Shown piece by piece: positions 37,137 to 63,760 of a stretch of DNA of 64,000 bases. The notes under the pieces are model-generated. The model had not been told where the DNA came from and did no database searches. It saw only the letters and a program-made list of their open reading frames with translations. The stretch comes from Cladocopium goreaui (taxonomy: Eukaryota; Sar; Dinophyceae; Suessiales; Symbiodiniaceae). Every line of letters starts with the position of its first letter. Within the stretch, counting starts at the first letter, position 1. Position numbers and translations under genes: made by a program. Where the stretch lies: the NCBI GenBank assembly GCA_947184155.2, contig CAMXCT020001024.1, forward strand, positions 511,584 through 575,583, written 5' to 3'.

Positions 37137-40100
37137 CTACACAACTTCAAGATCAAGATCTTCAGCCCCAGGAAGCAGCTGGTTACTCTGCAGGAATCCC
37201 ATTGGATCCTTGCTCCCGCAACTTGGCGGAAAGCGCAACGTGCAGCTGGTCTTGCAGTTGCTGACTCCAGCGACGTGGGGGAGCAGAATCCAGTTGATCC
37301 TTGGGAGTGATGGGGATGGTTGATGTAGGCTGCCCCACCCTCTGGGAGCCAAAGGATGGCCAAAGCGATGAAACGATGTCAAATTGAGTCCGTGTCCCGC
37401 CAGTTTAATGCGGAATGCTTCTGAATGAGACCCAATGTAAATCGCATTATATTATTTTATATAATTATATAATATATATGACATTGATTCCATAATATGT
37501 CTTTACATGGCAAGTAGTCAGTGCTGCTGAAGGTTGTTCACCGTTCACGACATTCCACCTGGGCTTTGCCAAGAATCTGGAACAAGGCCCGCTTGCAGCA
37601 TGAGCTTCATGGCTTCGACAATCTGTATGCAGTTTGATGGCTGCAACCTGCACTCAGATGAGTCGAGCGCTGGCTCCAAAATGTGACTTGCCTGCATCTG
37701 CATATTGTAGCTTATTACAACCTATACTATGCGCATATCTATATAATTCTATATATAATCATATATAAAGAATATAATATATATATATACTTGTCATAAC
37801 TGGAATCACATGGAATCACAAACCAAATGATGTTGCCAGCCACTGGCAGTCGCAGGTCGTGTAGGTTCTGACTTTTGAAACCAAATGCTGTAAGGTCCCG
37901 GCAGCTCAGAGCCCCAGGAAGCCTGACCGCTGCAGATGCGGAACAGGCGAACAGAAGGCTATCATAACTATCATTGAGATCACTCCTCCAAGGCATACCT
38001 AAGACAAGCTCACTGATTCTCCTAGTGGGCGCCCGTTTTTTTCCCCTCTTTTTCTTAATTAATTGCTTGGTCCATCTGTGTCCATCCCACCATCCCCCTA
38101 TCATCCCATGCCGCCCATGCCTGCAACAAACGCCGTAGCGCTTCCTCGAGCCAAAGCACCAGGAAGATTTCAGGCTTCGGCCCTGGCTTCGTGGAGGCCT
38201 GCTCCACTGCACTGCCATAGGTGCGCCTCGCAGAGAAAATAGGAAACTTTATGAGAAGATCAAAGATGTGTATATATATATCATATAACATTATATAACA
38301 TAATATAGAGTATTGTATCTGGGCACCTTAGAAAGGATTCACACTAAAAATCAGCTGTCATTTTGGGGTGGTTCATGGTGGCTCTCAATTATATCCATCA
38401 GCACCAAGAAAGAAAAGTCCAGATAGCCAAGTGAGATTTCCATTGCAGGCAAAAACCACATGCAAGAACGCTGACAGCAGATCCCATTCGTCGGATTTCG
38501 CCCAGACTCCAGAGGTATTTCCATAGCCTGACTTGCAACATGCCTCTTCATCCATAGATCGTCAGTGTCTGTGATTTTATTTTGTGGACTCCGGCGGTAT
38601 ACAGAATAAGTAAAGAATGAGAATGATAAAGTTCACCAGTTTAATCAAAATTGCCGTTTGTTTATGTTTGCTTGGGATTGTTTTAGATTTTAGATTATTT
38701 TAGATTGTCTGGCATGTTCAGTCGAGGATGTGGGCAGGCTATGTCCTTTGCCATGGGGCTTGTCGCGAAGCTCACCAGCCGGCATGGTCGTTTCCATCTG
38801 TCCCCAGATTGTCCTTCCGATCTTTGGATCGTTCGCTGAACCGGAGACCTTTGGCAATTTGGCCCAGATGCCAACGCTGCAAGTCTAGAGTCCAGAGCAC
38901 ATAATGGAACATAATGGACTGTCCTGATGATTCTAGACATTCTAGGCACAATCGCACGATATATCACTGGCATTAAAAAATGGCACTGCAGGTAACTAAG
39001 TCAACCTGCATCCTTTGAGACATGAGCAGAATGCTTCTTGCTCATGCTCACCGATGAATGACATCAGCCAATGACAAAAAAGATCTCAAAGCTTGATATC
39101 CATAGCGTCATAAGATTACCTTCAAACAAACGCTCTGAACTCCATAATTACACGTGAGTGAGGGGGTTTGACTACGTCCACTGGACTGCTTGGGTGTTCA
39201 AACATGGCAACTGGTGGGCACATCCCATTGCTTAAGCTTGCACACACCTCATCAACTGGAACATGAGACATACAAGCGTGAGCATACGCCGCATCAATCA
39301 GCAACGCATTTTGTGCCTTCTTGGCAGCATTGGATTCTTCAGGGTCTGCTTCGTCCTTGGCTGAAAATGGGGACCCTATGAACTGCTCTAATTATGACAA
39401 TTCCATACAATTCCTGGGTTTCGTACTTGTCAGACTTGACCCTGTTGCTCCAGTATTGTTGTTGCAGGCTTGAGTTTATGTTCTGAAGAGAGCTCGTTCA
39501 CACAGTGCCCCCATCCTCACACCTGAACTGCTCCTTGCGTGAATGTGTCTAATTTCATGGAGACCTTCTGCCACCATCTGACACCAAGGGGGTGGGGCCC
39601 TTCCTTGCAGCTGTGAGTCTTCAGGATCCTTTTTTGGTCCTGGTGCTTTTTGAATGCTCTTCCTTTTCTTGGGGCGCTTGGGTGTTTGTGCAGCAGTTCC
39701 ATCCGCAAGCTCCCCCTTCTCCTTTTCCAACCACTCTGGTTCGCTTCCTGTCGCATTGAAGGACGGGAGAAGGTGATTTCGCTTAGTACAGAGACTTGCG
39801 GATGTGCAGAACACGGGCATTCAAGAAATGCTGGTGTTTTGAGTTTTTGGGGGTATTGAGGGTATTGATTCCAAGTTTATGTTGAAGCACAACATGCCAG
39901 AGCTAGCGCAAAGGTCAAAGGTGCCTGCGACGAACCAAAGCCGGCCGCCATTCGGCATGAAGGAGGACGGGAAATATGCCTGCCTCCAGAGATGGGGCCA
40001 TTGATCACAAGGACCTTCCCATTGTGCTTGGATGTGGGGCAGGGTTCATTATCCTGGGTCTTGAATAATATAGCGAGGTAAAAAGCAGGGGCCATGACAA

Positions 40101-45715: not shown

Positions 45716-46194
45716 GTTCATTTTCAGGGATTTCAAGCGTTTCAAGAGGAGGGTTTGGCGCAACTATTGACTGTCCAACTTTGGGACCAAATTGATTAGA
45801 ACTGGTCAGTAGTAGGGTGTGATATCATGCGATATGGAGTGGATCGGGTGTGATAACATGATGCGATGACATTGTGTTTTTTTCCCACAGAATTCCATTT
45901 GAAGCATATTGACCATAGCCGCTTGCTCATGGCATCTCATGGCACTGTATGCATCGATCAATGAGCCTCTCCTGCAGCAGCGTATCTCTAGACTTCTGTG
46001 GCAACGGGACGATTTCTCCCGGGCTCGCAGATGCTGCCCTTAGGAAAAACCGGTGCTGAAGCTGCTCGGCCCATGTTTTTAACCGCCCATCCCTCAGCAA
46101 AAAAAATGTATTTTGGTCGGGTAGGATCTTCGTCCCAAATAGCATCACAGTAAAAACACACGAACATGCTTATGTACAAGCCCATGTTATATAT

Positions 46195-46387
46195 ATACAT
46201 ATGTGTATATGTATATGTGTATGTGTAAGTGTATGTGTATATGTATGAATGTATGTAGGTATGCATGCATGCATGCGTGCATGCATGTGTGTGTGTGTGT
46301 CTGTATGTATGTCTGTATGTCTGTATGTCTGAGTGTATGTATGTATGTATGTATGTATGTATGTGTGTATGTGTGTGTGTATGTGCA

Positions 46388-46424
<37 letters not shown>

Positions 46425-46470
46425 GTATGTGTATGTGTATGTATGTATATGTATATGTATATGTAAATGT
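46195..46470. repeat. (GTAT)n / (GTGTAT)n / (GT)n microsatellite
   Basis: Tandem TATG, TGTATG and TG units over about 275 bp. The Cys/Val/Tyr/Met and His/Thr/Ile ORFs on the two strands are artefacts. Confidence 0.95.
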
Positions 46471-46619
46471 GGTTAAAGGTTCCTTTGGGCGTGCGTTTTT
46501 GCGTACGTTTCTACACGTGTTTCTCATTGCACTCGGCTGCCATTTTCTCTGCAACGCACGATGCGTGTCAGACGCTTTGCGCTGTGCGCAAAAAAAAGGC
46601 ATCCGGAACCGAATTCAGT

Positions 46620-46935: not shown

Positions 46936-47221
46936 AGGAGCGGGAAAGGGGCTCGGGCCAATACTGCTAGCGCCCGGCATTTTTGTGGTCACACACGAGT
47001 CAAGTGGTACACCTATACGCGCACTGCGTCCAACCCCATGATGAACAAACGTGTGCCATGTATACCCCTACGTGCACAAAATGTGCACAAACAAGCATGG
47101 GGGGAGAAATACGTATGAAGCGTCTGCGCGCTACACTACAGGAAGTCGTAAATAATATAGTTGGCACCAGGGTCGTTTCTTAATCCCGCAACAAGTAACT
47201 ACCCCCCCCTCTCTGCCATAT

Positions 47222-47640
47222 GCCACACCAAAGCTTGTAACCGTAGCACCCTTGCTAGAAATGCAGCTACAGGCTTCTCTCTCCCCACTTTGCCTTATGC
47301 ACGCACCAAAGATTGTAACCGCAGCACCCTTGCTAGAAATGCAGCTACAGGCTTCTCTCGCCCTACTCTGCCCTGCCATTTGCCCGCACCAAAGAGTTTA
47401 ACCGCAGCACTCTTGCCAGAAATGCAACTACAGGCTTCTCGCCTTACTCTGCCATTTGCCCGCGCCAAAGATAGTAACCGCAGCACCCTTGCTGGAAATG
47501 CAACTACGGGGTCCTGCTCTGCCAGCAGCCACCACCAAATATTTTGACCGTAGCAATCTTTGTAGAAGTGCATCTAGAGGACTCTCCCGCCTTACTCTGC
47601 CATGTGCCCATACTAAATATTTTAACCGTACAAGCTTCTT
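47222..47640. repeat. Tandem repeat of about 80 bp, five to six diverged copies
   Basis: Units share TAACCGCAGCACCCTTGCTA, GAAATGCAACTACAGG and CTTCTCTCGCC, then CCATTTGCCCGC, spaced 75-85 bp apart (starting near 47233, 47317, 47398, 47475, 47548 and 47625). Copies decay toward the right. The array lies just downstream of the transposase gene and may be part of that element's end. Confidence 0.85.
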
Positions 47641-49229: not shown

Positions 49230-49504
49230 GACACGGGGCGCTGCACAACGGCTTTTTCAAGGCTTCCCCGCACAACACGCTTACACTGACAGCACCGGCA
49301 AATAGCTGCGGGAAAGGTATACATACATGCAGCGCCTAAACCACAGTCTGCAAGCAGAGTGTCTAGCCAGCGGTATGGTACATCTGACGCTGAAGAACTG
49401 CAACAACACGAAACTGCCAGCAGATGACTAGTTATAGCTCAAGACACCATGTCTAGAAGACAATGTCTGGAAAACACTGTTTTTGAGAACGCCCGAAACG
49501 ACCC

Positions 49505-49526
49505 TGGAGCCGTATATGTATATATG

Positions 49527-49557
<31 letters not shown>

Positions 49558-49947
49558 TGATTGATGTATGTATGCATGTAGGTATGTATATATGTATGTG
49601 CGTATGTATGTATGTATGTATGTATGTATGTATGTATGTATGTATGTATGTATGTATGTATGTATGTATGTATGCATGCATGCATGCATGCACGTATGTA
49701 TGTATGTATGTATGTATGTATGTATGTATTGATTGATGTATGTACGCATGTAGGTATGTATATATGTATGTGCGTATGTATGTATGTATGTATGTATGTA
49801 TGTATGCATGTATGTATGTATGTATTGATTGATGTATGTATGCATGTAGGTATGTATATATGTATGTGCGTATGTATGTATGTATGTATGTATGCATGCA
49901 TGCATGCATGCATGCATGCATGCATGTATGTATGTATGTATGTATGT
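49505..49947. repeat. (GTAT)n microsatellite with higher-order repeat
   Basis: Mostly TATG tetramers. A distinct phrase, TATTGATTGATGTATGTA and then CATGTAGGTATGTATATATG, recurs at about 49555, 49727 and 49821, so segments of about 95-170 bp have been duplicated within the array. Confidence 0.95.
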
Positions 49948-51440: not shown

Positions 51441-51515
51441 TTGATCACGTATTATACATATTATATTTATAGGTATCTCAACCTGAAACAGCCAGTAAGC
51501 GCACACGCTATTTTG

Positions 51516-51529
51516 CTTGAGCCAAAATG
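51516..51529 (-). other. Possible relict dinoflagellate spliced-leader sequence
   Basis: On the minus strand these 14 bases read CATTTTGGCTCAAG, identical to the last 14 of the 22-nt dinoflagellate spliced leader. The preceding eight bases do not match. Dinoflagellate genomes are known to carry such 5'-truncated relics upstream of genes that re-entered the genome from mRNA. The relic lies on the coding strand about 130 bp upstream of the first exon of the next gene. Chance cannot be excluded for a single 14-mer. Confidence 0.5.
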
Positions 51530-52171
51530 TAAGTGAATATACAAGGTACACTATTAGGCGATACTTTACAGGGAGGTAATGGAGACTATACATAAGCACC
51601 ATGTAAAAATACCCCCCGTTTACCGCAGCCGCTTGGCGGCTTTGGTAAAACTCCACCTCATGTACGCTGCCGCGATTCGACCTAAGTGAACAGGATTGTA
51701 CAAGAATGAAACACCTACGTCGGATGCTTGTGGCTCGGATGTCAAGGCACAGGACGAATGCGTGAATGCAAGTCGGATGCTCTTTTTGCCGATCAATGGG
51801 CACGGAGTTGCACACAGCACGGCCGTGGCTCCCGCCAGGCATCTTCAAATGGAATGAAGGAACAATACCATTCCTGTGATGTCACTCCAAAAGGATACCA
51901 TGGCAGGAAAAACTGTACAGCCATGAAAGGTGTGAATCGATTTGAATCTTGCCTTGAACATCCAATGGTATGGCTTGAGAAGTCATAGAAGTAAATTTTA
52001 ATTCATTCAAACTGTGCGGAAATTTGTGCATTGAAGTTCACTTGAATGGGGTAATGCATAAGGTGCGTCAAAGCTTTGGTGTGTTCAATGGGTGCGATGC
52101 CTGCCAAGTTTGTCATAGACAGGCATGCCTCCCGGCAAGCAAATTTGAAAAAGAAAGATATGACCTAAGCG

Positions 52172-52861
52172 TCAATGCGAGTCATCCCGAAGTTCAGGTC
52201 CAGCGCCAGTACCAGCCTCGCTGTTGATTCCAGTACCACGTGTAGCGGTAGCCCTGAACCCAGTAGGAATCTCCTTCAAAGTCACCATAGGCCACACCTC
52301 CCGGTGGGCTTCTGCCTTGCTTGCCCTTTCCCTTCTGCTGTCCCTTTCCCTTTGTCTGTCCTCCGCCTTTGTAGTGACCTTTTCCACCATGGCTTTGACC
52401 GTAAGGACCTCCGCGAGCAGTTGCTCGTGATGGGGTCGTTCATGTTCAGGTCGGCTAATGGGCCCACTTGCATGAGCTAGACTGACCTCCCGGTCGTCGC
52501 CGGTGGTTTCAGACTCCTTGTGCGTCTGTTGGGGGGCATAGTTCGACCACTGCAGCTTGCTGAACTCCACCAGTTCTTTCGCGATCTCTTTGGCATCAAA
52601 AGCATCAGGCACAAAGTCACGGTTGCCCCAGCCATAAACAATGGGTAGGGGTCTTTGCTTTGGCTTGATGAATTTTGCCACATAGACTGCGAACTGGCCA
52701 ATGTCGAGGAAGACGCCCCGATGTGACACAAACACCTCGGTGTGAAGATCCAAGGGTTGGTCGGGCTCCCGCTCCGACGATGGCACGAAAATCAACTTGG
52801 TGGCCATCTCAAGCTTTTCTCCAAGAACCTGAGCCTTGGTGCGCTCAATGGTCGGACTCAC
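52172..52861 (-). CDS. Retroelement ORF3, unidentified, 229 codons open
   Basis: The frame is open from an alternative start at 52861. The first ATG gives MATKLIFVPSSEREPDQPLD about 18 codons in. A compact N-terminal half (EVFVSHRGVFLDIGQFAVYV, then PIVYGWGNRDFVPDAFDAKE and AKELVEFSKLQW) is followed by a polar linker and a charged helix (EVLTVKAMVEKVTTKAEDRQ and RERDSRRERASKAEAHRE) of coiled-coil type. It starts beyond the end of ORF2 in a different frame, and three GGGA hairpins lie in or just after it. No family was recognised. It could be a structural or RNA-binding protein of the element, or the displaced C-terminal part of ORF2. Confidence 0.55.
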   Translation of the reverse strand: MSPTIERTKAQVLGEKLEMATKLIFVPSSEREPDQPLDLHTEVFVSHRGVFLDIGQFAVYVAKFIKPKQRPLPIVYGWGNRDFVPDAFDAKEIAKELVEFSKLQWSNYAPQQTHKESETTGDDREVSLAHASGPISRPEHERPHHEQLLAEVLTVKAMVEKVTTKAEDRQRERDSRRERASKAEAHREVWPMVTLKEIPTGFRATATRGTGINSEAGTGAGPELRDDSH

Positions 52862-52955
52862 TCAGCCAGCCAGACGCTCAATGAAGAGCAATGCCTCCGG
52901 CACCAGGTTTTGATTCGCCGCATTGAACTGAAAGAATGGGTCGCGGACGAGTCTG

Positions 52956-55900
52956 TCAACAAGGTCCTTGAAGCCCCTTTTCTTGAAAGATCTGACGTAG
53001 TTGCGGGCCATGTCTCTCAAGTTGCCATGTGCTTCTGGTTCGGACGGCGGTCGAAGAAGATGAAGATCCCTTCTCCGGCTGCCTGGCTACTCTGCCTCTC
53101 CGAGGGTGGTTGAAGATCACCTTGTCCATGGAAAAGGGCACACCTCTGGTACGGGCCATCGCCTCCCGGCGGGCAACCTCTGTGGCGATGTTGGCATCCG
53201 TCACGGGTTCCATTTGTCTAAAACACCGTGGACATTTCAGATGCCCGTCCATCATGAGGTATCCGCATATCGGGTGGCTGCAGCGCACCTGAGGGGAGTC
53301 TTGGATCTGGTTGTAGGAAATGTCCTTGAATTGCAACTCAAATCCAACTCGGCCCTGCCCTCGATTCCAGTTTCCACCACCGGGTCCGTTCCGCCCACGA
53401 CGCTGCAACCCACATGCATCAGTGCTCGTCATGGCGGCCATCTTTGCAATGGTGTAGCCGGGCACCAGCTGAGAACCTGATGCCGGCTCACCCTCCCGGG
53501 TGGCGGTGCTTTTCTCCACTTGGATGTCTTCGCGCCTGGAGAAGGGGAGGAGCTTGCCAAACTCAATGCGCTCTTTGATGCCTTCAAAGTTCAGCTGAGC
53601 ATTCTCCATCAACATTTCCATGCGGCTCATGAGGATGTCATCGGGATCAAACTCGGCCTTGGCCTGCTTGAGGACTTCCTGGTAAGTCTTCCGATGGTTG
53701 ACATAAGCCCTGTTGATATAGAAAAACTCGCCAGAACGCATATCAAAGGCGTTGATCATCGGGAGGTTCGATATCCAGTCTGGCGACAGGATGGCCTCGT
53801 CAGTCGCGAAAAGTTTGTAGCCCATTTGCATCATGAGCTCCATGTCAAACGCGATGGCGATTGGCCTCCCGGCCCGCGTACCTTGCAACTTTTTCATTTC
53901 CGCTTTCCAGGGCGGAGTGGAGTTGAAAAAGTTGTGGGCTCTGCCCGTTTTGTACGGGAATCCGCCAGGGATGAGGCCGAACTTGATGATGGAGTTGAAG
54001 GCGGCTTGGTCACAGGTGTGATACACCACTCTGGGGAACTTGTTCCACACAGGCGAGCCTTCCGGCATCGCGGAGAAAGCGGGGTGAACCGATGGGTCGT
54101 CAACCTTGGTCTCGTCGAAGTTCTCATCAAAAGTGAACATCGTTTTGATCATGGTCGACATCCCCCCTTGCTCCACGAGAAAGGCCCGATGGCCCTGAAT
54201 GGCCCTGATTCTCACTGGCGTCCACCTCAGCTTTCCGGACGACATTCCATTCACCTGCACTCTGAAGCGGCGCATCGGTGAGTTGCGCACTACCATCAAA
54301 ACTTCTTCTTCTCGGAGATGCGCAAAATCTCCTTGGAGATGCCTCACCAATGCCTTAAAGTCCATTGACAAATCAGTCCTCCGAATCTCTGGTGAAGGCC
54401 TCCTGTGAAACAAGCGGTGGCCACGGAGGTAGTCGGACATAGCATGGGAAATTGAGCTAAGCCTTCCGTAGTCCACCTTCCGCACAGGGACTCCTGCCAT
54501 GTTGTCCGGCTCAATCCACACCAGATCCTGTGCCGTGGCAAATTTCGACGTGTCGAACTGCTCAGCGCTCGGGCCATGTCCCTCATCGACAACCTTCAAT
54601 CTCTTGGGCATGGCCTTCTTCGCCGCCTTGGACTTTGGCTTGAGCTTGGCAGTCGGGTCAGGAGGCGTGGCTCCCGCCGACGCAGCTGCTGTAGTGTCAG
54701 TTCGCCAGGTCTTCGCCGATGATGCGCTCTGAGCCATGTCGGTCTTCCACGTCTTTGCAGATGACGAGCTCTGGGCCATCTCCGTCTTCCAGGTCTTCGC
54801 TGATGCCGTGCTCTGGACCATCTTGTTGCCCTGATCATCAACATCCATGGGCTCCGGGTCCCCCCGTGCATCAGACTTCTCGGCCTGCATAGAAGAGACC
54901 TTGTCGATCACGGCCATGTCATCATCGTCATCATCGTCGATCGCCTCGGCCTGCCCCTCCTCGACGTCGTGGAACTCCTCTTCATCGACAATCTCCACCG
55001 AAGCCACTGTCTCGAGGTCGTCGAGGTCCAGCTCCTTCTCTTCTTCGTGAACTGGATCACTGGCCACGACTCCCGGCGGGCGTTTGTCATCTTCGATGAG
55101 GTCCCAGCCCCTGAACTCCTCCTCTTCATCCTCGGCCGCGTAGGTGGCATCTTGCCACTCCTGGCCATGCTCTTCGGAGAGGCCTTGTCGCCTTGCCTGA
55201 ATTCGGTCTTCCATGGTGAGAGCCTGGACCTTGACAGCCTCATCATCTGAATCAGCGTTGTCTTGATGCATCGGTTCCAATGCCTGGTCCTCTTCAGGAA
55301 TGTCTCTCATCCAGGACTCGACCTCCCGGTCGGCAAAGGCTGTGGCGTTCTCCTCAGCTTGAAGCACCCAGTTGAAAATCTCGATGTCTGCATCAAGCAT
55401 GATCTTCTCAGGATCGGGTCGTTGAGGAAGATCTTGCGGTGAGGAGACATTCGAATCGATCTCAAGCTGGTACGCGGCCTTCAGGATGGTGAGGTTTGGG
55501 TAGTTCTTTTGCTCCTGGAGGTCCTCGATTCTTGGGAGTGTTCTCAAATGGTCGTCGACGCTGATGAGCTTGAGGTAGGAGAGGTGGCAGTCAGCGACGG
55601 CTTGAAGGAAGTTGGTAACATACTTCCGATTGATGGCGTCATCTTCCAAATGAACCTTGTCGTACCTCACAGTCCGGGCAAGCATCAGGGTCGTGTCGAG
55701 GGTTTGGATGCCGTGGTCCCCGCGCAGTGCCTTGATGTGGACGCGCATGGTCTCGTTGTAGGCCGACGGGAGAGCAAAGATGTCCGCGTCAGCATTCCCC
55801 ACAACCACGATGTCCAGGATTCGGGGTTCATCACGTTTGAGCTGGCCCAAGTCATTGACAGACCGCTCAACCCTTGCCTTTTGCCGCTCACACCAGTTGG

Positions 55901-56555
55901 CCGTGACCTCCCGGTCGGCAGCAGATTTGTTGTAGGCAGCCCTGTGAATCCAATGGACACCTCTGTAACCCCCTTCGCCATACACATCATTCCCGGCCCA
56001 CCCAACGATGACCAACACCGGAAGAACCGGACGACCATGGGCACGATTGGTGGACTCGATGTCATCGATGGCCTCGGGGATATACTGGACCATATGATTC
56101 AATCCCTTGCCCCACAGCATTTTGGTATATATGCCACGGATGTCTCCCCAGGGTTTGAGAAGATCGCCTCCGGAAAAACATGAAGCCTTCCCTGCATTGG
56201 GGTCAGGTACCAGAGCCAACGATGAGTCTGATACGATCAGCAGGTCGACCTCGCCTCCCGGCGGGTAAGGGCACATTGCCAAAAAGCCATCGGGCGTGTT
56301 CTTGTAGACCTCCGCCAACGTGTCGTACGCCCCTTCTGCATTGCCACCGCCCAGCATCGGCTCGACGATGTTCGCCAGGGGTAGTCGACATCCTTCCATC
56401 TCTCGTAGGAGCACCTGTGGGTCGTCCCAGGTCGCCACCGCAATGGCTCCCTTCAGGGTATTGACCACACCTTCCCATTGTGTGATGCGTTCGAGGATGG
56501 CGGGCCTCCCGGCAACCGCGCAGGCCTTGGCCATTTGGATTGCACGAGTCAACAT
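52956..56555 (-). CDS. Retroelement ORF2: SGNH-hydrolase-like + Tpt1/KptA-like + zinc ribbon, 1199 residues
   Basis: The ATG at 56555 (MLTRAIQMAK) is chosen because it follows the pol stop by 44 nt; the frame itself opens upstream. Residues 100-320 carry SGNH-hydrolase blocks in order: LLIVSDSSLA (Ser about 110), VGWAGNDVYG (Asn about 189) and DKVHLEDD (Asp 299, His 302). A long acidic linker follows, with three tandem copies of a 14-residue unit (SSAKTWKTDMAQS). Residues about 700-900 resemble RNA 2'-phosphotransferase, which removes the splice-junction 2'-phosphate from tRNA using NAD+: ISHAMSDYLRGHR, PVRIRAIQGHR, VYHTCDQAAFNSIIKFGLIP. The usual Arg-His pair near the start of that domain is split as RGH, so activity is doubtful. 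Near 1090-1113 is a C4 zinc ribbon (CSHPIC, then CPRC). A frameshift at about 52978 would extend the C-terminus by 36 residues (RGFKDLVDRLVRDPFFQF and onward). Confidence 0.7.
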   Translation of the reverse strand: MLTRAIQMAKACAVAGRPAILERITQWEGVVNTLKGAIAVATWDDPQVLLREMEGCRLPLANIVEPMLGGGNAEGAYDTLAEVYKNTPDGFLAMCPYPPGGEVDLLIVSDSSLALVPDPNAGKASCFSGGDLLKPWGDIRGIYTKMLWGKGLNHMVQYIPEAIDDIESTNRAHGRPVLPVLVIVGWAGNDVYGEGGYRGVHWIHRAAYNKSAADREVTANWCERQKARVERSVNDLGQLKRDEPRILDIVVVGNADADIFALPSAYNETMRVHIKALRGDHGIQTLDTTLMLARTVRYDKVHLEDDAINRKYVTNFLQAVADCHLSYLKLISVDDHLRTLPRIEDLQEQKNYPNLTILKAAYQLEIDSNVSSPQDLPQRPDPEKIMLDADIEIFNWVLQAEENATAFADREVESWMRDIPEEDQALEPMHQDNADSDDEAVKVQALTMEDRIQARRQGLSEEHGQEWQDATYAAEDEEEEFRGWDLIEDDKRPPGVVASDPVHEEEKELDLDDLETVASVEIVDEEEFHDVEEGQAEAIDDDDDDDMAVIDKVSSMQAEKSDARGDPEPMDVDDQGNKMVQSTASAKTWKTEMAQSSSSAKTWKTDMAQSASSAKTWRTDTTAAASAGATPPDPTAKLKPKSKAAKKAMPKRLKVVDEGHGPSAEQFDTSKFATAQDLVWIEPDNMAGVPVRKVDYGRLSSISHAMSDYLRGHRLFHRRPSPEIRRTDLSMDFKALVRHLQGDFAHLREEEVLMVVRNSPMRRFRVQVNGMSSGKLRWTPVRIRAIQGHRAFLVEQGGMSTMIKTMFTFDENFDETKVDDPSVHPAFSAMPEGSPVWNKFPRVVYHTCDQAAFNSIIKFGLIPGGFPYKTGRAHNFFNSTPPWKAEMKKLQGTRAGRPIAIAFDMELMMQMGYKLFATDEAILSPDWISNLPMINAFDMRSGEFFYINRAYVNHRKTYQEVLKQAKAEFDPDDILMSRMEMLMENAQLNFEGIKERIEFGKLLPFSRREDIQVEKSTATREGEPASGSQLVPGYTIAKMAAMTSTDACGLQRRGRNGPGGGNWNRGQGRVGFELQFKDISYNQIQDSPQVRCSHPICGYLMMDGHLKCPRCFRQMEPVTDANIATEVARREAMARTRGVPFSMDKVIFNHPRRGRVARQPEKGSSSSSTAVRTRSTWQLERHGPQLRQIFQEKGLQGPC

Positions 56556-56599
56556 GACGACGACGGGAGAGCGAAAGGGCGCGATGAGTGCACAGCAAG

Positions 56600-57617
56600 T
56601 TAGCTTGAGAGCGGGACGCTGACGGCGTCTGTCATGCGGAAAGTGTACTCTTCTGTTTTCTTGAGTGCAATGCCTCTGCCTGGTGCATGACGCCTGTTGC
56701 ATGTGCATTGGAACTTCGATAATGCTTTACCGACTCCAGCATGATTTGTGGCCACTGTCCAAGGCTTCTTCAACGGATCATTGTCTTGATTCACCATTCC
56801 AAGAGCACAACCGTCAAAATGGTAAGCAATCATTTCATACAAACTCAGAAGCTTTGCAACTTTAGCCAGTTTCCAATATCGACATTTTCGTGGCCACTCA
56901 AGTGCAATGTGTACTTCACAGTTCAACATCCGAAGGAACGATTTCAAGGAAATCCAAAGTCGGTCAAACTCTCGAACATGTTTCAAAACCTTTTCACGGG
57001 CACTGGGGTTTTTCATGTTGATATATGTCCATGGTGTACCCCCCGTGCACGGTAGGCTGATCCATATAAATGGTTTCACATCACCTTTGAAAGAGTTGAC
57101 ATACTCTGCAATCCTCATTTGGTTTTCAACTTCGTTAAGATCAAATTCTTCAGTGAACTGTAGTACTTCACAACCTTCAGACCACTTTCGATTGGTTTGG
57201 CTGAGTTTGGACTCGGGATGACAGCAAACTTCAACGATCAGTCTCTTGGTATCGGACTTGGCAGCGGGTCCCCCCGTGCTTGGTGCAGCAATGCTTGGAG
57301 GTATAATGGCCTCCGTTGCCGATGCCAAAGCTTTATGTGGGGTGACCTTCTTGGTGGGGGTCAATGCAAGAAGTTTGACAGCTAGTTTCCACTTTTCTGC
57401 ACTAACAAATGGCTTAGTGAGAATGTCTGCAGCTTGAAGCATGCTTGGACCATGAACTAGCTTGTACCATCTTCTTTTGAATTGTTCCTCCAACCAAGAT
57501 AGGTTAACTCGCTGTGTTTTGTCTGTGTGTCGGAAAGTGGGTGATTTTCCGTTCTCAAGGATTCTAATGGTAGCCTGATTGTCCTCTACAAATACACCTT
57601 TTATCGACCGTGGGGAA
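56600..57617 (-). pseudogene. Copia pol, 3' part: end of RNase H and C-terminal extension domain
   Basis: This begins where the LINE insertion ends. GVFVEDNQATIRILENGK, TDKTQRVNLSWLEEQFK and LQAADILTKPF are the terminal part of copia RNase H. Canonical copia proteins stop shortly after DILTKPF, but here about 260 further residues follow. They contain LIVEVCCHPESKLSQTN, FIWISLPCTGGTPW, VHIALEWPRKCRYWK and a Cys/His tail (CTCNRRH). The PCTGG loop after an acidic Rossmann-like strand faintly recalls DNA cytosine methyltransferases, but the match is too weak to call. The stop is TAA at 56600-56602. One GGGA hairpin lies inside (57265-57276). Confidence 0.85.
57603..57617. repeat. Target-site duplication, copy 1 (15 bp)
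   Basis: ATCGACCGTGGGGAA, identical to 60136-60150 and direct in orientation. It marks the 3' border of the LINE insertion. Confidence 0.95.
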
Positions 57618-60135
57618 GAAGAAGAGTTTGAAGTGCGCAGCGGCCAAATCCACAGCGCACGCAAGCGGCCGCGAAGCAGCCGCGCCTCCCTGAACCAGGC
57701 GAGAAACCTGGAGTCACACCTTAGCAAACAGGACCTTAGCGAGGCAAGCGCTCAATGGCGCGCAGCCCACAAAGTTTCCTGAACTTTGGCAATCCATCGA
57801 AGACTAGAAGCACTGAACCAACCAAACCGTTTGTCCACCACGTTTATGGGGGTGAGTTTCACCGGACGGTGGGGGCAGTCCCAGACCAAGTGATGAAAGG
57901 ACGCAGGAGAAACGCGACACCCTTCCCAAAGACAAATAGGATCGAAGCCAGCACCCGCCACAGCGCAAGCCGCAGGCGACAGCACAGCCCCGCAGGCAAC
58001 CGATCTCATGGCCGCCGACTCAGACATCCAAGACCGGACTTCATCCCACTTAATGGCAAAAAGAGACTCCTCAGGAAAGGAACGCAATTCAGCCGTTTCA
58101 TGTCGATTACTCCTCAAAAAGGCTCTCCATTGCAAAAGACGCCAAGTTTCCCGCACCCTATGCAAAACAAGCATCAGACTATCAGACGTGAGATCAACCA
58201 AAGTTTGCAGAGGACCACAAGACCATTGCCAAGGACCCACCACAGAAGAACCACATTCCTTGAACCAGCCGTTTAAAGTAAACAAAACAGAACCCCGAGA
58301 AGGACGATCAACCCAGACCAAACCGCGAGAACGAAGGCGATGGACCAAACTGGAAAGACGAACCCCAATGACGCAAAAAGGATGCAGCAAACCACCATAG
58401 AGGATGCTACGGAGGTGACGATTAGCAGCAAACATGACCCTTTGAGCGACGCGGAAGCTAGCCCACAACTGCCACATAGACCCCCAAGTAGGTAAGCGCG
58501 ACACCCAGCCATAAAGCATTTTACTGAGACCGTGCGTACGCAGAGCAAGAAGCAGGAAATTGAACGGCAAACGACAGGCACCTAACAGCAAAACCGAGCG
58601 TTTAGCTTTGTCGATGCGTTCGACTTCTTTACTGGACATTTTGCGATTTGACGTAGCCGAAGAGCACCCAAGAATACAAAAATCAGGAGAAACCCGTTCA
58701 GGATAAGAAGAAGCCGCAATCAAAGAGCGACGATGTTGAGAAGACCGCCCAGAAAGCTGAATCTTACCAGGAGACTCCCGAAGGCCAACAGAAGCAGAAA
58801 AGTCAGCCCAGGCCTGAATTTTCCCAATTAACCCAACGGCTGTAGACGCCGTAAAACTACGATCATCCATGTACACCCGAGTGATACCCGAAGAATCCAC
58901 AGGACGGACGTAATTGCAACCAGCCCCCATCCAAGCGAACATAGCAACAGGGCCGAAGGGGCAGCCCTGAGGGACGCAAGCAGAGGCATGAAGGGGGGAA
59001 GAGTCAACGTGGCCTTGCCATTCCAACCAACGAAGTTGAGTCCCCCACATGCGTTCGATAACCCGACAAAGGCCTTGTGGCCAACCTCCCCGACAAAGCA
59101 ACCTCCCAGTGGCAACAGCAGACATAGTATCATATGCCTTAGAATAGTCGAGAGACGCAACATAACCCAAAGAAGAGAAGGAACCGAAGATTTCCGAAGC
59201 CGCAATTTGAGCATCAGCCCCACGCCCGGCAACCACTTCAGAGGGAAGAGAGTCAACCCAAGCCTGGACAGAAGGAGATTGAACATACGTCGAACCCCAC
59301 AATCTCCAAAAACACGCAAGGACGGTAATTGGCCTCATGTCCTGGATATGTAAACAACCATTGGTAGCCCTTTTAGGAATATTGACCATGCGAGAGTGCA
59401 ACAACTGATTAGGCACTTCACCTTTCATTTCCCAATTGACGGCAAGGAGACGGAAGCAGCTCAAGGCTGGCACAGGCAAATGCCTCAGCTCGTCCCCTTT
59501 CCAGCCATCAACACTGGCTGAACCTCCTACCATTCTTGTTCTGGCCGTTTTTACCAAACCTTCCAAGGTAGGCGGCTCCCAAGCGATTTGAACATCAGGA
59601 ATGTGAGCAGTGGCAACAAGATTCCTAGAAATGGTTTCAACGTCCTGTTGTTGGTTAGACCAGAAATCATTCCAAAAAAGATGAACCATTTGAGCCACTT
59701 CTTTGGGGTGATGAACAGTAGTCCCAAAACCCGAAACGTGGTCGACCTGAGGAGCAGTGCGGGCCTTCAACCATCGACCCAAGCTTTTGGGGTCCTCCAA
59801 AATGTTGGTTTTCCATCGTTGCAGCCTGTCAGACCGAACCTGACGCTCAGCATCATCCAACTGTGCTTTGGTTCTGAGAATTTCATCATTAATTTGATCC
59901 CTGATCGTAGGAGAAAATTCAAGACCAAGTTTCAGAAATAACGAATCAACAACATGTCTATGCTGATACCAGCCCCGAGGCCGGCCAAGAAAACGGCGAA
60001 GTTCGAACAACCTCGCGAGGCGCTTCCGGTGTTTCAACAGCCGCATGGATCCAGGAGCAGAAATATTTTTAGTCCTAGACCAAGTGGCAGGTTTCCACTG
60101 AGGCAAATGGCCCTTTGAACAGCCGTGATTCAACC
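57618..60135 (-). mobile_element. 5'-truncated LINE-type retrotransposon inserted in copia pol
   Basis: A 2518-bp insertion lies between two exact copies of a 15-bp target site. It carries only the 3' part of a non-LTR element: a reverse transcriptase ORF without the usual upstream endonuclease, and a 134-bp GC-rich 3' untranslated segment. There is no poly(A) tail; the minus-strand end reads CTTCAAACTCTTCTTC. It lies in the same orientation as its host element. Removing it with one copy of the target site rejoins the codons of copia RNase H (FSPRS followed by IKGVF) with no change of frame, so it landed in an intact stretch of coding sequence. Confidence 0.93.
57752..60133 (-). CDS. LINE reverse transcriptase fragment, 793 codons open
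   Basis: The frame is open from the insertion border, so the listed start is not a true initiator. Motifs of non-LTR reverse transcriptases appear in order: GSASVDGWKGDELRHLP (about 204-220), MRPITVLACFWRLWG (266-280), SLDYSKAYDT (327-336), ACVPQGCPFGP (385-395), the catalytic YMDD (421-424) and LRESPGKIQLSG (about 445). A C-terminal Cys-His cluster (CLWEGC, HHLVWDCP) near residue 750 matches the zinc knuckle found after RT in many LINEs. No apurinic endonuclease domain and no RNase H are present. The frame has no internal stop, so the insertion is relatively recent. The clade within the LINEs is not determined. Confidence 0.92.
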   Translation of the reverse strand: MNHGCSKGHLPQWKPATWSRTKNISAPGSMRLLKHRKRLARLFELRRFLGRPRGWYQHRHVVDSLFLKLGLEFSPTIRDQINDEILRTKAQLDDAERQVRSDRLQRWKTNILEDPKSLGRWLKARTAPQVDHVSGFGTTVHHPKEVAQMVHLFWNDFWSNQQQDVETISRNLVATAHIPDVQIAWEPPTLEGLVKTARTRMVGGSASVDGWKGDELRHLPVPALSCFRLLAVNWEMKGEVPNQLLHSRMVNIPKRATNGCLHIQDMRPITVLACFWRLWGSTYVQSPSVQAWVDSLPSEVVAGRGADAQIAASEIFGSFSSLGYVASLDYSKAYDTMSAVATGRLLCRGGWPQGLCRVIERMWGTQLRWLEWQGHVDSSPLHASACVPQGCPFGPVAMFAWMGAGCNYVRPVDSSGITRVYMDDRSFTASTAVGLIGKIQAWADFSASVGLRESPGKIQLSGRSSQHRRSLIAASSYPERVSPDFCILGCSSATSNRKMSSKEVERIDKAKRSVLLLGACRLPFNFLLLALRTHGLSKMLYGWVSRLPTWGSMWQLWASFRVAQRVMFAANRHLRSILYGGLLHPFCVIGVRLSSLVHRLRSRGLVWVDRPSRGSVLFTLNGWFKECGSSVVGPWQWSCGPLQTLVDLTSDSLMLVLHRVRETWRLLQWRAFLRSNRHETAELRSFPEESLFAIKWDEVRSWMSESAAMRSVACGAVLSPAACAVAGAGFDPICLWEGCRVSPASFHHLVWDCPHRPVKLTPINVVDKRFGWFSASSLRWIAKVQETLWAARH

Positions 60136-60150
60136 ATCGACCGTGGGGAA
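60136..60150. repeat. Target-site duplication, copy 2 (15 bp)
   Basis: ATCGACCGTGGGGAA, identical to 57603-57617. It marks the 5' border of the LINE insertion. Confidence 0.95.
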
Positions 60151-62826
60151 AACATTGAAATCATACATTCTCCCTCTTTCTCACGTCCTACGAACTCGTA
60201 GTCGGTGATGGCTTCACGGATTTCGACGGATTCGATGTTGTAGTCGGACTCATAGGGACCATAAACCCTGAAGAAAGTCTTGCCAGTCCACTCCACATTG
60301 ATCGGGTAGTCAACTTTGACCTTCCAATTGTCCTGCATGAAGTCAACCATTCCGTCCTTTAGCATCACGGTGGTTCGAGCACATCCGATACGCTTAAGGT
60401 TAATGGGTGACTTGGACATGTCAATGGGTGTGAACAAATGTGACCTTGGTTTTGTGTGGACTCGGATAAGCAACCTTCTACTTCTCATGAATTGCCAGTA
60501 TTCCCCATTGGGTTCTTTTTGGGTTTCAATGTCATGCCTTGGCAAACCTCCCGGAATGCTGTCTTTTGCTGTTCTCTCCCCCCCCGCGTTCTGGAGGTAT
60601 GCCCACAAACCGGAGGAAGGTAGACCGACAGCTCTGAGGGATACGTTTGCACTCACAACTTCACTTTCAGTGCTTGACATTGCAACGGCAGTTTGTTTCT
60701 TACTGAATGCTGTGAGCGGGAAGTACGTGTTGGGTCCAACTAGAACTAACAAACAACCACTGGTGGATCGATTGTCGTACTCTCCTGCATGGTCCGCATC
60801 GGCAAATAGCCAAAGCCTACATTCACTCACCTTGTCCCCTATGAAAGCTCTTTGTTTGTGATCCAGGGTGGAATTAATGTAACAAATAAGTCTGTGCAGT
60901 GCCTTGTCGCACTCTGCACTCCATTTTGTCACACGAGCTGCCAGGCCTTGAACGGCTCGCAGCAAGTCAAAACGTGCCATCCTGGCTGCAAATAGCACTT
61001 TCATAAGGACCCTTGCGGCTATTGGAGCCAATACGCCTTTGGTTTCCTTCTCATCGGCAATGGGCCGTGCAATTCTTTCTTCGTGGAATGGTGTGGAAAC
61101 TTGTTTCAAAGGCTTGGCATCCCTGCCAGCAAGTGATAGATATCGATCAACACATGATTTCAGGAAAGGCTCCATATCATATGTGAAAGTAGTCACAGGC
61201 TTTTGCATGCAGGGCTGGTTCTCAAACAGTTGGTCCATATACGAGAAACCTTCCGCTCTAGCTTTCTTTTTGGCTCCGGACTTGTCCCTCTTGATGGTAG
61301 CCATTGCAGCCTTTGGATCTTTGCATGATGTGGGGAAGAAGTAAGTTGTGCCTACCCAAGAATCATTTAGGCTACCCCCTTTGTTCACGTTGGACCCAAT
61401 TCCAATAGTGTCCCATTGTTCAACTTCATTTCCATTGTTGTTGCATGGGATTGCATTCGTGAACCTAAATGGGGCTAAATGGCATGTCTTAACAACTTCC
61501 TCATTGGGCAAAAATAATTTCTTCCTTGGCTGCACATGGTGTCTCATGTAGACATCGTTGACGGTGTCAAGCTCCCAGAAATCCTGAGTCCTGTGGCACG
61601 CGGCGGCGGCAGGCGCGGCCGGGTCGGCCAGTGACTTGTCAAAGACATGAGCGTAAGGGTGATCCTCGACCTTGAGCTTTACGTTGTGTTGAGCTACATG
61701 GTCGCATCCAAGATATCTATTGACTTCCCCGGGAGTGTCCATGTCAATCTTTGATGCAATCAAACTCCATCCCTTCGACATGTTTTCTTTGGGGCCGGAC
61801 ATCTTAAAATCGTCAACATACACGACAAGCAACAGTTTGAGCTCTGGGTGGAAAAACACCGAAGGCCACCCTTCCGGGTCTGGCATGATAAAGCCCACTA
61901 GTTTCAACATGGCTTCACAGTATTGTTCCCAGAGTCCCCCCGAGTCGAAATGATCGGGTGGCAGTTCCACCCACGTCTCCACGCCCTTCCATAAGGCTTG
62001 AGTGTAAGCTTGCACTCCGTCATTTTGTTGGGTTATGAATCCCGGTTGAGCTCCGTAGGCATCCACCGCTTTGCCAGCTTCCATAGTGGCAGGTGAAGAA
62101 CCTAATTCAGAGAACAGTGCAACATCGGCGCTTTCGTCCTTTACGTTGTTGCCTTGAAATACTGTTCTTCCTTTGAATTTCCGGAGTTTATCTCCCTCGG
62201 GTAATTCACTTCCCTTTTCAACGCAAATCTCAAAGACTTTTCCTACGTGGACCTTCTTCCCAATCTTTTTGGCCTTGTCGGCAATGACCTTCCATTCGGC
62301 CACTGTCTCATATTGCCATGCCTTCTTCTTTACCAGTTTCTCCCACTCTACATCTAAGGCTTGCTGGGCTTTGGGATTGGCTCTAATTTCCTTTTTCCCC
62401 ACTGGCCTAGCCACCAAAGTGTTAACGGCTTTCTCCCCAGATTGGATTCCAAGCCTAATACACTTAACTCGATGCTTTTGAGGGTTCATCTGGCAAACAG
62501 GCATTGCTGGGATGAATTCGTAGGATAAACATTTTTCTAACTCATTTGGTGATTCTTTGAGAGTTCCGATCATGGGTACAGCTTTCACTCGTTTGGCGCG
62601 TTTCTTTTCCTTTTCTTCCAGGGCTAACTTTCGTTGCTCATCTGCTATTGATGCCCTTCTTTCTTTCTGAGACATTGCTTGCCATACAAATGGAGGGATG
62701 TCCTTTGGCTTACTTGAATTCTTGTATTTTCTTGCTTTAAAACCACCTGCGTCATAGAATGAGGGGTCATTGGTCCTGATTCTTTCAAGCTCCCCTGTAA
62801 TCGGATTGATTACCTCGACCTCTTCA
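60136..62826 (-). pseudogene. Copia pol, reverse transcriptase and most of RNase H
   Basis: The frame is open from about 62826 with no need for a start (EEVEVINPITGELERIRT, just before the ATG at 62675), as expected inside a polyprotein. RT landmarks are GRTVFQGNNVKDES, QNDGVQAYTQALWKG, the catalytic LLVVYVDDFKMSGP, and TPGEVNRYLGCDHV. RNase H shows LWLFADADHAGEYDNRSTSG and AFSKKQTAVAMSSTESEVVS. Between the RNase H helix ending GLWAYLQ and the conserved EDNQ (on the other side of the LINE) lies an insertion of about 140 residues not found in canonical copia (contains VHTKPRSHLFTPIDMSKSPI). The frame breaks upstream (62810-62830) relative to the integrase part. Confidence 0.9.
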
Positions 62827-63760
62827 TCAGGTACAGGTCGATTTGTTCTTTTGAGAATATTGTGACGATTACCTCATGAACCTCAATGTCCTTTTCAAGG
62901 TCTTCGACCGGAGGATCAATCTTCAAATTCTCTTCGTGGACATGCCATGATTCATCATCTTTAATGCAAGTTGTTCGAAACGGAAAGTCGGCTGCATCAA
63001 AGTCGGGAGATGGACCTATACACTGATTGTCGATGATCCGAACATTCACTTTGCAATTGGCATATTCGTACCATGCCTCCTTGTGGTCAACATGCTTGAA
63101 AAATTCTATATAACCATCCCTGGTGATAAACCGCGGATTGAACTGTTGGGCAGGTTGTCCAGCTTCAATGTCAGTGACTGTTCTTTTGGCTGGGCCTGGC
63201 TCCCGCACAGGCTGAGCGTCTTGCTCTTCCGGTGGCGGTAGTGCATCCTGGTCATCACACAGTTGGTTTGGTTTCAAGCTACCTTCTCGGATGGCATCGG
63301 CACGTTTGCGACAGGGAAACTCGATTCTCTCAGGAGTAGAAACCTTTAACACCCTCAACACCGTGACGGATTGGTCAAAATCTGCATCATTGATTTGCTT
63401 TAGAGAAGCTACTGCAAATTCCTTTCTCCAATGGAAGCCTGGATGGATAACATATCCTAGGAAGATACCGGGTTCAGAGGTCGGTTCGAACTTCATCTGC
63501 TTCTTGGGTTTCTTCCGAGGTCCAGTCCAATCGTCCACCTTACATCCAAACGGGATAAGTGGTCCTTCGAAGTCTGTCCCAAATCTCAATTTCCATGGTG
63601 TGGCCTTTCCAGTCCCATCATGTCCCATCTGGTGCTGTGTCATGCATGATGCACCAATGTCTGGCAGCATAGGGCCAGTATCCATGGTGAAGTCCTGCTT
63701 GAAGCAGATTTGCACGTGTTCCTTCCAACGTTGACCGCACGGCTTGTTCGGCGATGGCAT
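62810..63760 (-). pseudogene. Copia pol, integrase C-terminal region and linker to RT
   Basis: The frame resumes the integrase after a frameshift: TPWKLRFGTDFEGPLIPFGC and KFEPTSEPGIFLGYVIHPGF are the copia GKGY-like box, followed by an acidic linker (DQDALPPPEEQDAQPVREPG). It ends in a stop at 62810, and the following RT frame differs. Two frame changes (about 63630-63660 and about 62820-62850) therefore separate three coding blocks. Programmed frameshifting at both points is unlikely, and decay is the simpler reading. Confidence 0.85.

Follow-up and report, generated by a model that had tools for sequence, protein, structure and literature searches.

The 64,000-nt stretch of the Cladocopium goreaui genome considered here (contig CAMXCT020001024.1, positions 511,584 to 575,583; hereafter the window) contains, on its minus strand, a damaged Copia-type long terminal repeat (LTR) retrotransposon that is split by a nested long interspersed nuclear element (LINE) and carries many copies of a small RNA hairpin with the loop GGGA. 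We consider it very probable that these hairpins are a functional RNA motif. Their repetition, covariation, sense-strand selection, synonymous constraint and occurrence in a second family indicate, as far as sequence can tell, that a single cis-acting RNA motif is repeated here. An RNA signal belonging to the element, as proposed in the original prediction made from the letters alone, is still the best reading, with the carrier confirmed as a retroelement. The interpretation we favour, at a probability of about 0.5, is that they are packaging signals, sites spread along the RNA at which the Gag/nucleocapsid protein of the element itself binds, a partner that we infer from position.

The original prediction described twelve GGGA-loop hairpins, all in one orientation and with none elsewhere in the window. 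A scan of 51826-57276 recovers exactly twelve perfect stems of at least 4 bp around TCCC on the plus strand (GGGA on the coding strand), and zero stems of that length enclose GGGA on the plus strand in the whole window, in agreement with a single orientation. The statement that there were none elsewhere was wrong, as four further stems of at least 4 bp are present: two in the same element (61115-61128 and 63113-63124) and two outside it (37210-37221 and 38796-38809), the latter unmatched by a motif model of the hairpin and looking like chance. Two upstream relatives had also been claimed; that at 61868-61879 has similar flanks and the loop GGAA, and that at 63195-63211 has the GGGA loop on a 2-bp inner stem with a 5' bulge (by eye). 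The predicted excess over chance was borne out by sequences of equal composition, which fail to yield similar counts. Within this region, for which the scan counts 11 hairpins rather than 12 because the site touching the region edge is excluded, 1,000 dinucleotide shuffles gave a mean of 0.148 and 1,000 trinucleotide shuffles a mean of 0.126, each with a maximum of 2, and shuffling synonymous codons in the open reading frame 52956-56708 gave a mean of 0.154 (maximum 2, 1,000 shuffles) versus 7 observed. Any other tetraloop on a stem of at least 4 bp occurs at most twice in the region.

The carrier is, on sequence grounds, a giant Ty1/Copia-type LTR retrotransposon of a Cladocopium-like dinoflagellate. 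At 57617/60136 the window copy is broken by ~2.5 kb of inserted sequence, which we take to be a nested LINE: it lies in the Copia frame, bears an RVT_1 reverse transcriptase and has 15 bp common to both junctions. A copy on contig C720, which matches the window copy piece by piece at 95-99% identity, is uninterrupted: it measures 14,136 bp end to end, encodes a single frame of 4,077 aa and has, as a Copia element should, direct LTRs on both sides (156 bp, 99.4% identity). Four other copies have open frames of 4,399-4,400 aa. Searching the genome (1.17 Gb, 6,202 contigs) with a 3.8-kb query, and scoring 40 of the 59 candidates, revealed, besides the window, 30 near full-length copies at 90-97% identity and two that are more distant, on C1212 (78-80%) and C2993 (88%). 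All of the relatives bearing an organism name (11 of 23) are from C. goreaui and are 72-95% identical. One frame contains matches to the Pfam families SH3_retrovirus (residues 717-751, E 0.0061) and RVT_2 (residues 1185-1385, E 1.3e-5), which follow the Ty1/Copia domain order weakly, both being under the Pfam curated cut-offs, and no Pfam match to an integrase core was found in this frame. A CCCH zinc finger scores above its cut-off upstream of pol, and a KptA-type RNA phosphotransferase match in the polyprotein falls below it. The polyprotein is unusually large (frames of up to 4,400 aa; L032:3-4535, L031:1-6570) and includes this KptA-type stretch; after RNase H it also has what are presumably a GND motif like that of SGNH hydrolases and a methyltransferase-like stretch.

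Over the uninterrupted C720 element the hairpin excess is equally clear. It contains 17 GGGA hairpins of at least 4 bp, the next commonest loop occurring 3 times, versus 0.38 GGGA stems on average in 500 shuffles of the 14,136 bp (maximum 4); when the bulge is scored as well, 17 of 39 structures have a GGGA loop, versus 0.2 in 30 shuffles. Hairpins with comparable flanks and a GGAA loop number two (one at L031:3928), versus 17 for GGGA. The element has no stem around TCCC, even of 3 bp, and thus no antisense counterpart to the hairpins. Chance or composition as their source is ruled out by the shuffles, including the bulge-scored ones. In all, the C720 copy has ~21 sites, and the claim that the GGGA sites fall in all three codon phases was confirmed for those in its open reading frame.

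Alignment of 21 C720 sites, 17 of at least 4 bp and four with a 3-bp inner stem, revealed a larger motif, 5'-UGC-N-[4 bp]-GGGA-[4 bp]-NN-GCC, so that the unit is longer than the 12 nt first described and includes a GC clamp that is usually offset by a bulge on the 3' side. The stem amounts to ~7 bp in two parts, 3-5 bp beneath the loop followed by the clamp, and a 3' bulge of 1-3 nt is the commonest arrangement. At positions outside the stem, which played no part in site selection, G is conserved at -7 in 18/21 sites and C at -6 in 17/21; on the 3' flank, G is found at +10 in 14/21, C at +11 in 16/21 and C at +12 in 13/21, and -6 can pair with +10 and -7 with +11 in 17/21 sites each. The best-scoring arrangement has exactly one bulged 3' base in 10/21 sites and two or three in 4/21, the remainder having a 5' bulge (3/21), unpaired bases on both sides (3/21) or an unbroken stem (1/21). 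The loop, for which the sites were picked, is GGGA in 21/21; it fits the GNRA consensus and is closed by a C-G pair in 16 sites, G-C in 3 and A-U in 2. As predicted, the stems covary between sites around an invariant loop: the covariation score is 0.755 versus 0.181 ± 0.043 in shuffles, partly by construction since the sites were chosen for the hairpin, with 36 double-changed cells versus 10.6 expected, and the score falls to 0.05-0.16 once the pairing partners are slid. The clamp, the genome-wide counts and the constraint between copies are independent of site selection. All of the 28-nt pieces fold into a hairpin with the GGGA loop, and a search of Rfam at the gathering score gave 0 matches in the window, L031, L032 and L033.

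To follow the sites between copies, we aligned 14 copies over a 3.8-kb coding part (the window, C720 and twelve more whose identity to the window is 0.80-0.98). Diversity around nine coding sites has its minimum at about -6 to +6 and is low from -8 to +12; it climbs immediately on the upstream side of -8 and more gently beyond +12, and none of 20,000 random placements with equal site number and phases was as low in diversity as observed. Third codon positions are nearly frozen: between the window and copy L029 (80% identical), differences occur at 2/36 of them in the 12-nt cores and 3/27 in the flanks versus 498/1,167 in the rest, and for copy L030 the corresponding values are 2/36, 3/27 and 289/1,172. 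Together with the synonymous-codon shuffles, these values uphold the claim that the pattern is maintained in the nucleotides. At 55319, both L029 and L030 have CAACC/GGTTG in place of CGACC/GGTCG, a compensatory change of two bases that may be a single event, which keeps the pairing and alters the amino acid through one base. Of the 488 pair states, which include those of the window, 479 show no change, 2 are compensated, 4 are G-U and 3 are broken; stem mutation without compensation had been offered as a test that could refute the idea, and by that measure the outcome is mixed but favourable, with few pairs broken. A chance hairpin at 56100 (CAAGGGATTG), variable between copies, was left out of the third-position and pair-state counts.

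The same alignment bears on the suggestion, also made in the original prediction, that the hairpin is a self-spreading unit that inserts copies of itself. Many similar short units within one element would fit such a process. The sites, however, sit at fixed places in the 14 copies, and the only gaps at sites are those of L035 (3-nt and 61-column) and at the fetched end of L042, so that no clean empty site is seen. Moreover, stem letters vary from site to site around a constant loop, and most of the hairpin peptides that could be anchored recur in the related proteins P0020 and P0021, which are 63% and 49% identical outside the hairpins. Self-spreading is thus largely refuted, and we regard it as very improbable.

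Conservation in related proteins also raises the question of whether the hairpins are a by-product of protein constraint or of GC-rich codon usage. In proteins related to the 3' part of the polyprotein, hairpin peptides are generally better kept than the remainder: they retain 22/22 residues in P0020 versus 447/710 outside, 23/32 versus 595/1,211 in P0021 (where sites 9061 and 10896 are not conserved), 23/32 versus 524/1,052 in P0024 and 17/27 versus 333/808 in P0025; only 11/33 versus 294/1,059 are kept in P0026, a poor agreement that is perhaps due to misalignment or a frameshift. Six hairpin peptides upstream of P0001 could not be anchored on it and are excluded from these counts. Protein conservation is what a by-product would predict, but the synonymous-codon shuffles and the near-frozen third positions speak against it, the same RNA shape arises from different peptides in different phases, and two of the sites are located past the stop codon; this explanation is refuted.

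Searching the genome with the pattern TGCNNNCCGGGAGGNNNNGCC gave 201 matches versus 3 for its reversal, and 2 when the loop was replaced by GTGA. Among the 100 places listed (hand count), 14 have the window-family string, 16 have other strings, and 70 bear two strings or close variants of them, often ~7.3 kb apart. Recurrent strings belonging to neither family are found on C628, C732, C913 and C1016 and on C813 and C1090, which suggests more carrier families. The 18 distinct listed strings are related by descent, so that p-values are indicative: 15 of them have a Watson-Crick pair at the free position -3:+6 (5.4 expected; 0/20,000 permutations), and -4:+7 is paired in 13 (8.9 expected, p 0.035), with nine instances of G-U as sense and none as antisense. 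The window family likewise has 4 G-U states versus 2 A-C states (G-U on the antisense), both of the latter in L035. This sense-side excess of G-U points to selection on the sense RNA, which is probably the selected molecule rather than DNA or cDNA.

The loop preference also bears on an alternative in which GNRA loops dock in the minor grooves of C-G pairs, so that the genomic RNA would fold or dimerise with no protein involved. GGGA fits GNRA, tandem C-G pairs are frequent in the stems, and GGAA, another GNRA loop, caps two bulged structures of the element; docking should, however, tolerate other GNRA loops, and the 2 matches for GTGA versus 201 for GGGA make this alternative improbable.

As a background we took 200 kb of the same genome in 20 stretches, placed at round positions on contigs from a reverse-transcriptase listing and therefore not random. 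This sample has 3 GGGA/TCCC stems of at least 4 bp, and up to E 10 the motif model matches it twice, at L025:1788 (20.0 bits) and L012:567 (13.3 bits); a genome-wide fashion for such hairpins is rejected within it. None of the LINE-type loci L001-L008 gave a motif-model match; they have 3 GGGA/TCCC stems, of which two are the same 12-mer on opposite strands. In IMG/VR viral contigs the pattern was matched 193 times, and no match was confirmed as a relative.

Through the motif we reached a second Copia family, represented by C15, the sole carrier fetched for the 70 two-string places and chosen for its motif matches at 285084 and 292387. It is 41% identical to C720 over 262 aa of the integrase-side part and 30% identical over 1,151 aa of the 3' polyprotein. 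Three more GGGA sites are found in C15, at 291772 (3 bp), 293840 and 294962 (with G-U allowed), the last two having the form GCC-[4 bp]-GGGA-[4 bp]-N-GGC; no site on the opposite strand was found in 291700-296400, and the C15 sites occupy two codon phases. The site at 285084 falls in the same protein-alignment column as a C720 site (DREVQP versus NREVEP), that at 291772 is four columns off a C720 site, those at 292387 and 294962 are twelve off in poorly aligned stretches, and 293840 is near none, positions which imply that some sites were kept and at least one seemingly lies at a new place. A further 5-bp stem with a G-U pair, at position 283 of L045, is outside the site lists. Near the C-terminal end of its polyprotein the C15 family (L046) has, by eye, a CCHC zinc knuckle, CWKCGQYGHKSFEC.

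How might such sites work? Under the packaging interpretation, a single RNA-binding protein that the element encodes, most probably its Gag/nucleocapsid part, would recognize each hairpin, and the ~20 sites along the genomic RNA would jointly select that RNA and condense it into a virus-like particle, much as the packaging signals dispersed along the RNAs of MS2 and hepatitis B virus do. A protein that reads loop and shape would be expected to fix the loop and the clamp while leaving the stem sequence free, the CCCH finger upstream of pol lies where a nucleocapsid finger is expected and points to Gag/nucleocapsid as the partner, and multiple sites on one long RNA would suit cooperative packaging. 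The sequence evidence is also compatible with a recurring RNA signal that a host or element protein reads for another step, such as nuclear export of the 14-kb transcript, splicing avoidance, control of translation or RNA stability; two sites in the 3' untranslated part and the single long frame (4,077 aa in C720, 4,399-4,400 aa in the four other copies) are consistent with this. A general host signal, however, would be expected in ordinary genes too, whereas the motif appears confined to the lineage, with only two matches up to E 10 in the small, non-random background, and we regard a signal for another step as less likely than packaging.

Several observations weigh against the packaging interpretation or the RNA motif itself. 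Besides the selection of the 21 sites, ViennaRNA gives an inner-stem probability >0.5 at only 8/21 sites in a 122-nt context, and antisense 28-mers are about as stable as sense 28-mers. The L025 background match outscores some element sites, and the element site 4866 is without a clamp and doubtful as a member. All three broken pair states are at 53160, and copy L035 is without three loop bases at 55905; L035 also has the 54669 site inside its 61-column gap and two of the three broken pairs, and looks, from its sequence, like a decaying copy. The hairpin residues are conserved in distant proteins too, so that the constraint may be partly on protein; only one of the four C15 sites in 291700-296400 (293840) is a perfect Watson-Crick stem of at least 4 bp, which leaves a strict count without excess; and the copies, like the strings, are related by descent.

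Among known systems, the SL3 stem-loop of HIV-1 has a GGAG tetraloop bound by nucleocapsid and belongs to one local packaging region. The Copia hairpins resemble it in having a purine-rich tetraloop on a short stem and, if the proposed partner is correct, in recognition by a zinc-finger nucleocapsid, and differ in being spread over ~20 sites. Multiple stem-loops with a shared motif on one genomic RNA are found here, as is expected of dispersed packaging signals. Such signals are described for MS2, hepatitis B virus and other RNA viruses in the available portions of PMC6281560 and PMC7612645, the former naming Gag-like proteins as a possible extension. As those portions present them, the MS2 and hepatitis B virus signals are likewise many short stem-loops on one genomic RNA with a shared recognition motif and a variable remainder, and MS2 also has a stem bulge, albeit on the 5' side whereas that of the Copia hairpins is mostly 3'; in contrast to both viruses, the Copia loop is invariant among sites and the carrier is an LTR retrotransposon. 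In the available part of PMC4974528, Ty1 and Ty3 also have their RNA selected through cis-acting sequences thought to be recognized by Gag, the Ty1 packaging sequences being placed near the 5' end (nt 237-380) and a role of the Ty1 pseudoknot in encapsidation being described as not demonstrable; unlike the element here, neither is mentioned there as having a repeated family of coding-region hairpins. Copia elements are the most abundant retrotransposons of Symbiodinium according to PMC5890265, whose text does not contain the word 'hairpin'; these are LTR elements of the same superfamily in the same algal group, from which the present element differs by its single, very long frame with a CCCH finger and an extended 3' part.

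A fuller version of the packaging interpretation, which we advance tentatively, is an MS2-like assembly code in a giant dinoflagellate Copia lineage, in which ~20 GGGA hairpins over the coding sequence, in all phases and partly re-created elsewhere as families diverge, would be read cooperatively by Gag to package the 14-kb RNA. We found no report of an array of such hairpins in an LTR retrotransposon in our searches, which covered open-licence PMC papers, and if correct this would be, to judge from those searches, the first described. Dispersed specific assembly sites have in our view been hard to settle in viruses, where they are degenerate and difficult to separate from chance; the sites here, being uniform, numerous, covarying and near-frozen synonymously, and belonging to an element that has many copies and natural variants, open the question to direct test. 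The motif also provides a 23-nt RNA tag with which raw sequence can be searched for this retrotransposon lineage, and a protein-RNA pair that is a candidate for use in RNA tethering.

Table 1. The Copia element in the window and its hairpin sites (coding strand, minus). Bits are motif-model scores; peptides are the residues coded at the site.
Feature	Position	Strand	Support
3' LTR of the window copy; start at the shared TATTTTTAC after a G tract, end by eye	51450..51611	-	
GGGA bulged hairpin GCC-TGGC-GGGA-GCCA-C-GGC, 3' untranslated part	51820..51842	-	perfect stem; 26.3 bits
GGGA hairpin, 3' untranslated part	52120..52142	-	perfect stem; 23.5 bits
GGGA bulged hairpin, PPGGV in C720 copy	52289..52311	-	perfect stem; 27.8 bits
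GGGA bulged hairpin, DREV	52478..52500	-	perfect stem; 23.0 bits
3' part of Copia polyprotein frame, KptA-like stretch, interrupted in window copy	52956..56708	-	
GGGA hairpin, RREA; varies more between copies than any other family site and has all three broken pair states	53154..53176	-	
GGGA hairpin, 5-bp inner stem, TREGE	53484..53506	-	perfect stem; motif model
GGGA hairpin, RAGRP	53857..53879	-	perfect stem; motif model
GGGA hairpin, 3-bp inner stem, SAGA	54662..54684	-	15.9 bits
GGGA hairpin, G-C closing pair CGGG/CCCG, RGDP; core identical in 14/14 copies	54849..54871	-	
Extra GGGA site, one stem mismatch (by eye), identical in 14/14 copies, outside the 21 model sites	55061..55083	-	18.8 bits
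GGGA hairpin, DREV; compensatory G-C to A-U in L029 and L030	55314..55336	-	
GGGA hairpin, DREV; loop with 3-nt deletion in copy L035	55899..55921	-	
GGGA bulged hairpin, PPGGE; core identical in 14/14 copies	56246..56268	-	
GGGA hairpin, 3-bp inner stem, AGRP; core identical in 14/14 copies	56497..56519	-	
GGGA bulged hairpin, G-C closing pair, TGGP	57259..57281	-	perfect stem; motif model
Nested LINE-type insertion (RVT_1), splits Copia frame, 15 bp common to both junctions	57618..60135	-	
Pol part of Copia frame, homologous to the C720 frame holding RVT_2	60075..62675	-	
Weak match, counterpart of C720 site L031:5244-5266, one base different	60539..60561	-	13.0 bits
GGGA bulged hairpin, A-U closing pair, pol region; missed in the original prediction	61110..61132	-	perfect stem; 26.9 bits
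GGAA-loop variant, similar flanks	61868..61879	-	sequence comparison
GGGA 4-bp stem without GC clamp; doubtful member	63113..63124	-	perfect stem

Most of the 3' LTR of the window copy cannot be aligned to the C720 LTR. At 51507-51520 (minus strand) it contains CATTTTGGCTCAAG, where the C720 LTRs hold only GGCTCAAG; we take CATTTTGGCTCAAG to match the 3' end of the dinoflagellate spliced leader. The LTR may have captured a trans-spliced leader here, or the match may be due to chance. Elsewhere in the window are long ATGT/ATGC tetranucleotide arrays (46136-46553 and about 49455-49940), five copies of a 79-nt unit (47200-47585) and, on the minus strand at 28811-29806, an open frame for a pentatricopeptide-repeat protein (PPR_2, E 9.9e-43).

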